The notes under the pieces are model-generated. The model had not been told where the DNA came from, did not search any database, and saw only the letters and a program-made list of their open reading frames with translations. Shown here one piece after another: positions 902 to 7,086 of a stretch of DNA of 8,235 bases (position 1 is its first letter; each line of letters starts with the position of its first letter). The position numbers were made by a program, and so were the translations under genes. Source of the stretch: Thermoproteota archaeon (lineage in GTDB: Archaea; Korarchaeota; Korarchaeia; B14-G2). The stretch lies in the NCBI GenBank assembly GCA_003661385.1, contig QMWA01000069.1, forward strand, positions 1 through 8,235, read 5' to 3'.

Positions 902-937
902 TAATTACATGTAATTAAAAATAATTACATGTAATTA
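902..937. promoter_or_regulatory. Two perfect 16-bp palindromes (probable paired operator) over the promoter of the TauE/SafE gene
   Basis: TAATTACATGTAATTA occurs at 902-917 and again, identical, at 922-937, separated by AAAA. Each copy is its own reverse complement, and the centres are 20 bases apart, close to two helical turns. The block is an AT-rich island in GC-rich surroundings. It sits 9 bases before the transporter's start, and the AT stretch between the palindromes (about 912-923) is about 26 bases from the start codon, the right place for the TATA box. Known archaeal winged-helix dimers bind such palindromes, and bound dimers here would cover the TATA box, so repression is the likeliest mode. 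The regulator is not in the window. The repeat structure is seen directly; the operator role is inferred. Confidence 0.75.
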
Positions 938-2844: not shown

Positions 2845-3720
2845 CTAGCTCGGCTGCCTCCTAGCTGCTATCACAGCAACTGACACAGCTATCATCGCGT
2901 AGCCTGCAAGCTGCTGTGGAGCTGGCTTCTCGCTGAAGAGCAGCAGGGCCAGGGTTGAGGCCACTACAGGCTCCAGTATGGGAACTGTGTTCGCCACCAC
3001 AGCCTTGACGCTCCCCAGAGCGTAGTTGTAGAGGCCATGCCCGAACACTGTTGGCACCACAGCTAGCGCCACTATGGCAGCCACCACCTCACCTGGATAC
3101 AGCTTAGCTACCTCCACGCCTATGGCTAAGCAGGCTGCCATAGCTACGAGCGAGGCTGAAGTGTAGACGTAGGATATGTAGCATGTCGTAGGCATCTCTG
3201 CTCTGAGCTTCCTGCCAAGCAAGGTGTAAGCTGCCAGGAGCACTGCTGCAGCGACTGCTAGCGCGTCTCCAGCTGAAGCCCTAGTCAACCCGCCCAGCGA
3301 CGCTAGCGCTATGCCTGCTGTGGCCAGCGTGACACACAGGGCTTCAACTCTGCTGGTCTTCTCACCTAGGGCTAGGGGCGCTGCCAGAGCCACGAAAACT
3401 GGGCTGGTGTTCACCAGAAACGTTGCGTTCGCCACTGAGGTCATCTTGACTGACGCGACGAAGGCTATGAAGTGCAGGCCTAGTGCGACGCCAGATGAAG
3501 CTAGGGCCTTGGCCTCCCAGCGAGCTGGCTTCCTGAGGGTGCCTAAGGCAGCTGCCCCAGCTAAGACTATCACAGAGGACAGGGCTAGCCTGTAGAACGC
3601 CAGAGCAACTGGGTGCACTCCCTTAGCCAGCCTGATGAGGATTGCAGCTGACCCATAGCATACTGAGGCAGCTAGCAGGGCTGCTATGCCCCTAGAGCTC
3701 CCTCTCCCTTGGCCCCTCAT
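2845..3720 (-). CDS. EamA/DMT-superfamily permease
   Basis: A 291-residue inner membrane transporter with two EamA repeats and about ten hydrophobic helices. The first repeat begins right after a short basic N-terminus (MRGQGRGSSRG) with a segment reading CYGSAAILIRLAKG. It contains the FYRLALSS motif near residue 42 and ends at LGEKTSR. The second begins near SAGDALAVAAAVLLAAYTLLGRK and closes with PILEPVVASTLALLLFSEKP, a hallmark of the family. Members export amino acids, nucleobases or other small metabolites; the substrate cannot be read from sequence. Its ATG lies inside the 3' end of the citrate-synthase-like gene (29-base overlap), with GAGGA 8 bases before it (3729-3733), so the two are probably cotranscribed and translationally coupled. 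Its stop lies 18 bases from the convergent stop of the plus-strand gene ending at 2826. Confidence 0.9.
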   Translation of the reverse strand: MRGQGRGSSRGIAALLAASVCYGSAAILIRLAKGVHPVALAFYRLALSSVIVLAGAAALGTLRKPARWEAKALASSGVALGLHFIAFVASVKMTSVANATFLVNTSPVFVALAAPLALGEKTSRVEALCVTLATAGIALASLGGLTRASAGDALAVAAAVLLAAYTLLGRKLRAEMPTTCYISYVYTSASLVAMAACLAIGVEVAKLYPGEVVAAIVALAVVPTVFGHGLYNYALGSVKAVVANTVPILEPVVASTLALLLFSEKPAPQQLAGYAMIAVSVAVIAARRQPS

Positions 3721-4450
3721 ACCTTATTTCCTCTAAGGGGATCTCCTTGAAGGGCTCTCCCTCAACCATCTCCTCGTAGGCGTGTGCTGCCACCCCCAGG
3801 GCTCTGGAGAGGACGAATATTGCTCTGCCAGCCCTCCAGTCGAACCCGAGCTCACAGGCTACAGCTGCCATAGCCCCATCGATGTTCATCGGAAGCCTCC
3901 TCCCGGCTTTCTCGAGAGCTCTACCGACCTCTAGCGCAGCCTTGATGTACCCCCTGTCGAGCCCGCACTCTCCAGCTACCTCAAGGAGCCTCTTGACCCT
4001 GGGGTCATCTGTGTGGATCTTGTGCCCGAACCCAGGTACTCTCTTGCCTTCAGCTAGCAGCTTGCTGACAGCTTCCTCAGCAGCCTTCTCCAGCCCAACT
4101 TCATCTCCCCTGGCCTTGACCTCGTAGAAGAGCTTCATGGCAGCCTCTATGGCCCCACCGTGGTAGCTTCCCATGGCGTTTATCCCGCTGGCAATGGCGT
4201 TCTGCAGCCCCACGCCACCTGATGCGACTATCCTGGCAGCTGAGGTGGATGGGCAGAATATGCTGTGGTCACAGCCAGCAACAAGCAAGGCATCTAGTGC
4301 TCGCCTCCACTCCCTGGGCGGCAGCTCCCCATTGAACATCAGGTACAGCATCTCCCCATAGCTCACTCTGCCAATCAGCTCATCAAGCCTGTAACCTCGG
4401 ACAACAACCTTGTTCCTCTCAACATACGAGATCTTGGTCCTCCAGATCAA
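3692..4450 (-). CDS. Short citrate-synthase-superfamily protein, citryl-CoA-lyase-like
   Basis: At 252 residues it is far shorter than citrate synthase (about 370-430) but matches the short citryl-CoA-lyase-like branch, which resembles the C-terminal part of ATP-citrate lyase. It opens with WRTKISYV, then VRGYRLDELIG (17-27) and GEMLYLMFNGELP (32-44). The three superfamily catalytic positions are present: His97 in SYHGGAIE, His143 in GFGHKIHTDDPR, and Asp191 in MNIDGA. The NIDGA form, rather than the NVDFY of true citrate synthase, points to citryl-CoA cleavage or formation (citryl-CoA to acetyl-CoA plus oxaloacetate). ALGVAAHAYEE closes the core. The TTG at 4448-4450 is preceded by an in-frame TAG, so it is the first possible start; GGTG (4457-4460) sits 6 bases upstream. 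No citryl-CoA synthetase gene is nearby. The overlapping permease may be functionally linked, but this is inference. Family is firm; exact reaction moderate. Confidence 0.85.
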   Translation of the reverse strand: MIWRTKISYVERNKVVVRGYRLDELIGRVSYGEMLYLMFNGELPPREWRRALDALLVAGCDHSIFCPSTSAARIVASGGVGLQNAIASGINAMGSYHGGAIEAAMKLFYEVKARGDEVGLEKAAEEAVSKLLAEGKRVPGFGHKIHTDDPRVKRLLEVAGECGLDRGYIKAALEVGRALEKAGRRLPMNIDGAMAAVACELGFDWRAGRAIFVLSRALGVAAHAYEEMVEGEPFKEIPLEEIRYEGPREREL

Positions 4451-4480
4451 CTAGGACACCACACCCCATGCAGCCATCAA

Positions 4481-4488
4481 GCTAAAAA
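4481..4488 (-). promoter_or_regulatory. Probable TATA box of the citryl-CoA-lyase-like/permease operon
   Basis: Read on the minus strand this is TTTTTAGC, the only AT-rich block in the 140-base gap between this gene and the next one upstream. It predicts transcription starting near 4460, a leader of about ten bases that would just include the GGTG ribosome site before the TTG start. Confidence 0.4.
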
Positions 4489-4590
4489 CCTTCAGCTAGC
4501 ATGGAGCAGACGACAGCTGAAGCCAGCTAGCTCTAGCAGCCCGTCTACCTAGAGCCTGAGCTCCAGCCGCATGCGAGGCTGAGGCTCAGC

Positions 4591-6675: not shown

Positions 6676-7086
6676 TTGAAGTACAGGCTGATGGACCTGC
6701 TGGCATGCCCAATCGACAAGACCTTCCCCCTGAAGCTCATAGTCTTAAGGGAGTCTGAGGCCAGCGTCCACAGCGCAGCTGGAGGCCCATGCGAGCTCTA
6801 CTGCGGTCGCCTAGCCAGGGAGGTGAAGCCCAGCGACACCCCAGAGGCCCTAGGCTGCAGCACCTGCATGAAAACCGAGGTAGAGGAGGGGGTGCTATAC
6901 TGCACCACATGCAGCAGGTGGTACCCCATCTTAGAGGGGATCCCCAGGCTGCTCCCAGACCAGCTGAGAGACAGGGAGGAGGACCTCAAGTTCCTCAGGA
7001 GGTTCAAGGACAGGCTGCCACGTGAAGTCGTGGAGGAAGGCAGGCCCTACAACCTAAGTGGGGGCAAAGAAAAGCCACAACGGTGA
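6676..7086 (+). CDS. trm112: Trm112-like zinc-binding protein (methyltransferase activator family)
   Basis: A 136-residue archaeal Trm112-like protein. Trm112 is the small zinc-binding partner that stabilises and activates several methyltransferases acting on tRNA, rRNA and release factor. The typical start LMDLLACPID (5-14) is seen, then CELYC (39-43), CSTC (61-64) and CTTC (76-79), followed by SRWYPILEGIPRLLPDQLR (80-98), the family's signature end. CPID with Asp in place of the second Cys also occurs in other archaeal members as I recall them, so it is not taken as damage. A charged tail of about 38 residues follows. The start is TTG 6676, giving MKYRLMDLL as in relatives, with GGTG 5 bases before it; ATG 6691 would remove conserved residues. 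It is divergent from TyrRS, which fits a translation-related role. Partners cannot be identified here. Confidence 0.88.
   Translation: MKYRLMDLLACPIDKTFPLKLIVLRESEASVHSAAGGPCELYCGRLAREVKPSDTPEALGCSTCMKTEVEEGVLYCTTCSRWYPILEGIPRLLPDQLRDREEDLKFLRRFKDRLPREVVEEGRPYNLSGGKEKPQR

Follow-up and report, generated by a model that had tools for sequence, protein, structure and literature searches.

A phased TAATTA array at an archaeal tauE promoter as a probable operator for an RHH regulator of sulfate activation

MetJ is an RHH protein of sulfur metabolism that acts on tandem 8-bp met boxes. The omega repressor of pSM19035, also an RHH protein, binds arrays of 7-bp heptads with one dimer per heptad (PMC4803016). 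In archaea, gene clusters for sulfate activation and the suggestion that a copG gene regulates them are already published. In the cluster of Pyrococcus yayanosii a gene at the same place as the regulator gene discussed below is annotated copG and suggested as the regulator of the cluster (PMC8268124). The CopG gene PAP_09880 of Palaeococcus pacificus and its sat gene PAP_09885 are both up with elemental sulfur (PMC6981617), and in T. onnurineus with sulfur the PAP phosphatase is lowered and ATP sulfurylase is raised (PMC4463584). The cluster thus responds to sulfur status, with mixed direction. The TauE/SafE family of transporters includes sulfite exporters, and the function of a member cannot be read from its sequence (PMC5840216). 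No description of an operator, an array or a regulon was found in the open-access papers searched.

The DNA analysed here (the window) is the complete 8235-bp contig C69 of an archaeal genome assembly (G000; 1.74 Mb, 91% complete). Its putative regulated gene, tauE, lies at 123-893 on the minus strand and encodes a TauE/SafE-family membrane transporter of 256 aa. PF01925 covers residues 8-246 with 101.6 bits against a cut-off of 32.6 (E 7e-29), and the protein is 42-50% identical to homologues in other archaea, some of them within sulfate-activation clusters. A repeat array at 902-937 lies on the upstream side of tauE and ends 8 bases before its start codon at 893. Read on the minus strand into the gene, the sequence is TTAATTACATGTAATTATTTTTAATTACATGTAATTAG-ggggagc-ATG. 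The T-rich middle of the array, about 26 nt upstream of the ATG, is the likely TATA element; by position and composition it would correspond to TAATTATTTTTAATTA on the minus strand, at 912-927. A divergent target on the plus strand is unlikely, as the next gene starts only at 1337, 400 bp away. Two other reading frames of the window are unusual. The citrate synthase-like ORF at 3692-4450 (minus strand, 252 aa) matches only the C-terminal half of its Pfam family (best stretch, profile positions 164-350 of 357); the frame could be truncated or split, or its start wrongly called. The Trm112-like protein encoded at 6676-7086 (plus strand) has a 40-position profile spread over 87 residues, which implies a long insertion.

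The self-complementary 16-mer TAATTACATGTAATTA occurs in two exact copies, at 902-917 and 922-937, with centres 20 bp apart. The original prediction had reported this pair before a TauE/SafE gene and judged it very unlikely to arise by chance, and both points hold: with up to 3 mismatches allowed the window contains 3 matches to the 16-mer, against 0.01 expected from dinucleotide shuffles. The third match, at 912-927, is where the two copies overlap. TAATTA is present in the window exactly four times, as box 1 at 902-907 (the closest to the start codon), box 2 at 912-917, box 3 at 922-927 and box 4 at 932-937, at a pitch of exactly 10 bp. The repeat is therefore better read as a 4 x 10-bp array of a 6-bp palindrome than as two 16-bp palindromes. 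The prediction of a helically phased regulatory site for a dimer is supported, with its unit corrected from two palindromes to four boxes. First-order Markov estimates give 0.3 TAATTA per window, 0.002 TAATTA pairs at 10-bp spacing genome-wide and about 3e-12 genome-wide for four in a row. Four perfect boxes phased at 10 bp in surrounding DNA of about 57% GC suggest current selection. Several short boxes at a fixed spacing of about one helical turn are also the layout of tandem-box RHH operators, and the stretch at 902-937 has this layout.

The site is unique in its own genome. Beyond the matches within 902-937, the 16-mer is found nowhere else in the assembled 1.74 Mb at up to 3 mismatches, and the array is also the sole match to a looser two-box pattern; the scatter inside genes by which the original prediction could have failed did not appear. 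When the window is scored with a matrix trained on regulator promoters of other genomes, its own genome excluded, three overlapping sites of 25.5, 24.7 and 16.3 bits are obtained in the array, and the next independent site scores 0.04.

The same array stands before sulfate-activation operons in other archaea, in agreement with the predicted relation to sulfur or anion regulation. In several archaea the best matches to the 16-mer lie directly before a gene for a small RHH/CopG-type protein of 75-82 aa, which is followed by sat (ATP sulfurylase). The 16-mer is exact at the regulator-sat sites of G063 and G083 and has one mismatch at those of G004, G014 and G095. The genes after the regulator are sat, often a DHH phosphoesterase, a type I phosphodiesterase (PDE), cysC (APS kinase) and TauE/SafE. 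In G116 and G194 the regulator with its array precedes tauE and CysD/CysN, an ATP sulfurylase unrelated to Sat. The site thus marks RHH-sat or RHH-cysD operons, tauE, or both, and in the genome of the window the tauE promoter only. Among the best 30 loci, the recognition strand of the RHH protein was anchored automatically in 24, and all 24 of these RHH promoters have two or more boxes with a spacing of exactly 10 bp (three boxes in 13, four in 1). Spacing between boxes is 10 bp in 40 cases and 20 bp in 15, and no other value occurs more than twice. In control segments from these loci two boxes occur in 2 of 443 cases and three boxes in none. Across 20 genomes a degenerate two-box pattern matches the RHH promoter (in the genome of the window, the tauE promoter) and almost nothing else. 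Sites at other genes in some archaea, for example G070, G076 and G060, were treated as chance.

In the small regulators of these clusters a KYTTVSIP strand precedes a region of helical character. Their family match to RHH/CopG is weak: Pfam RHH_1 is hit in 9 of 16 members (best E 2.5e-4), and member 1 reaches 19.5 bits with the cut-off at 20.5. The best match to a solved structure is the RHH region of NikR, with E 0.011. By profile search the family is present in 81 of 297 archaeal genomes; no RHH relatives were found in viral contigs. The original prediction had named a MarR/ArsR/Lrp-type regulator. No such gene is present in the window or in the archaeal clusters examined, and the best-supported type is RHH/CopG-like.

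From these sequence comparisons it is highly probable that the array at 902-937 serves as an operator for RHH (CopG-like) repression of sulfate uptake and activation, and tauE is very probably switched together with sulfate activation. Each RHH dimer would read one palindromic TAATTA box via its two-stranded ribbon (KYTTVSIP), and with one dimer to each helical turn as many as four would sit side by side on the same DNA face. The array spans the likely TATA element and the start region of tauE, so that its occupation would keep out TBP/TFB or polymerase and silence the gene. Release would follow when sulfate uptake and activation must rise. The cargo of TauE, taken in the original prediction to be an exported anion, may instead be sulfate, since clustering of tauE with ATP sulfurylase fits sulfate uptake better than export.

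The sign of regulation deserves separate attention. The same RHH protein could use the array as an activator site or as a concentration-dependent dual switch, which we consider unlikely, even though the window array extends upstream of the likely TATA element and the omega regulator does activate or repress according to its concentration (PMC4803016). In promoters that we judge Thermococcales-like by gene content, about 22 bp separate the TATA box from the beginning of the array, which covers the start site, as expected of a repressor. The window array lies over the likely TATA element. RHH regulators usually autorepress their own genes. Repression is the most likely action of the protein.

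The recognition strand and the operator vary together. TTxSIP-like strands, defined as TT/TS-x-S-x-P, were compared with other strands over promoters that had not been used for the matrix. The promoter scores above 15 bits for 9 of 13 TTxSIP-like regulators and for 0 of 17 regulators with other strands (VEVKIP, VTIEIP, VSIKIP, TTITIP and others), cases that are not fully independent, some of the other-strand ones being second RHH genes within operons. One TTISIP regulator, that of G009, lacks a good array (2.2 bits). Such joint variation is expected if the RHH ribbon reads the boxes. Before RHH genes followed by CysD-type genes, those of G291, G206 and G034 with TTITIP and that of G257 with TTISIP, a related but distinct palindrome is found, for example TTAATGTTATAACATTAA, which points to a possible change of DNA specificity.

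This covariation also weighs against a different dimeric regulator, of MarR, TetR, ArsR, Lrp or Rrf2 type, acting on two 16-bp palindromes whose likeness to the RHH-sat sites would be coincidental. Such a reading draws on tandem ATTACATGTAAT pairs that occur in bacteria beside unrelated genes, of an Rrf2-type regulator in Bacillaceae and of a BacA operon in gammaproteobacteria. The archaeal sites, however, have exact 10-bp phasing, sequence and pathway in common, whereas most bacterial pairs are spaced differently and neither tauE nor sat was seen beside them. We therefore hold it to be very improbable. In the Bacillaceae loci L064, L069 and L074 the tandem ATTACATGTAAT pair has as neighbours an NmrA-like reductase gene and the gene of an Rrf2/HypR-like regulator, whose family was checked in L064 and L069; the pair is likely an operator for that regulator. 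In the gammaproteobacterial loci L060, L062, L063, L068 and L073 a conserved pair lies directly before a gene of the BacA biofilm-regulator type (family checked in four of the five). Together with Bacteroidales repeats and a phage-like region, these matches to the tandem pattern in GTDB and viral contigs were rejected as convergent, being next to unrelated genes.

TauE/SafE is regularly found in these sulfate-activation clusters. TauE homologues belong to the cluster in G004, G014, G027, G033, G095, G139, G158, G191 and G360. Among these genomes only in G004, which we take to be another korarchaeote, does tauE have a clear array of its own, a promoter with four boxes; most other genomes carry the array before the RHH gene and not before tauE. 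In G191 two tauE genes precede sat-PDE-cysC-RHH, with one weak site just upstream of each tauE (14.1 and 9.8 bits). In G158 a gene at 3959-4579, possibly for a sulfotransferase by its sequence, sits between sat and tauE. For the closest TauE homologues (G134, G373 and G158), no matrix match above 12 bits was found in the stretches examined. Conservation before orthologous transporters, which the original prediction had proposed as a check, is thus borne out in G004 and fails for most other homologues, because tauE there lies inside the operon.

In the genome of the window the cluster is split. Contig C30 carries sat-PDE-cysC but lacks the beginning of sat, opening about 9 codons into that gene, and a search of the assembly (91% complete) gave no RHH homologue. 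As C30 begins inside sat, the regulator gene probably falls in the assembly gap, and with it the regulator-sat promoter, the expected second target; no other gene of the assembly carries the site. The anticipated sharing of the site with other genes is seen in other genomes (at the sulfate-activation operon and at one tauE) and not in this assembly. Gene tauE reads toward the end of C69, and in the DNA downstream of it (1-122) a GGAGG near the contig end might belong to a following gene of like orientation that falls in the gap. The order tauE - [gap with RHH] - sat-PDE-cysC is plausible by analogy with G191, a precedent for tauE in first place, although a direct overlap between the ends of C69 and C30 was looked for and not found. 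Contamination was considered for C69 and rejected, since C69 and C30 agree in GC content, AGCT density (18.8 versus 19.7 per kb) and tetranucleotide profile (r 0.67). AGCT is strongly over-represented throughout the window and in locus L088, intergenic DNA included, at about 19 per kb compared with 4-9 per kb in the other archaeal loci compared. The least credible alternative, that the repeat is AT-rich promoter or structural DNA, a chance product or a relic to which no regulator binds, for instance after loss of the regulator in this lineage, agrees with the absence of the regulator gene from the assembly but is hard to reconcile with four perfect, phased boxes at the Markov expectation given above.

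Taken together, we lean towards a broader reading: TTxSIP RHH proteins and phased TAATTA boxes would form a previously undescribed system of many archaeal families, controlling TauE along with Sat or CysDN, which are non-homologous ATP sulfurylases, while TTITIP variants appear to read TTAATGTTATAACATTAA. If so, strand and box would amount to a simple code for protein-DNA recognition. Operator and regulon are known for few regulators in archaea. In this case sequence comparison over several archaeal lineages could predict regulator, DNA code and target pathway at once, and the prediction is testable in culturable Thermococcales. It would also link an archaeal TauE/SafE transporter with sulfate activation and thereby suggest a cargo, which the family name alone does not.

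Among described systems the P. yayanosii cluster (copG PYCH_17520, sat, DHH pApase, PDE, APS kinase and an adjacent TauE) is one of the closest, with the same gene set, a CopG-like head and a TauE neighbour. In the accessible part of its description, no operator was found and regulation is only suggested (PMC8268124). The present genome differs in the array that tauE has to itself and in the division of the cluster between two contigs. The window protein is, as a PF01925 member, related to the TauE/SafE (TSUP) transporters, among which C. glutamicum CysZ is treated in PMC5840216. NikR, a nickel regulator with an RHH domain, is similar in that the best solved-structure and NCBIfam matches fall on its RHH part, but the regulators here are too short for a metal-binding domain and belong to another pathway. 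MetJ shares the RHH fold class, tandem boxes and sulfur metabolism, yet it is not among the solved-structure matches, its box and pitch are different, and the regulators here are shorter (about 78 aa). The omega repressor offers a parallel for the polymerisation of RHH dimers along a promoter array of short boxes that is proposed for 902-937; in contrast to its heptads, the box here is the 6-bp palindrome TAATTA at a 10-bp pitch, before a chromosomal archaeal gene of a sulfur pathway.
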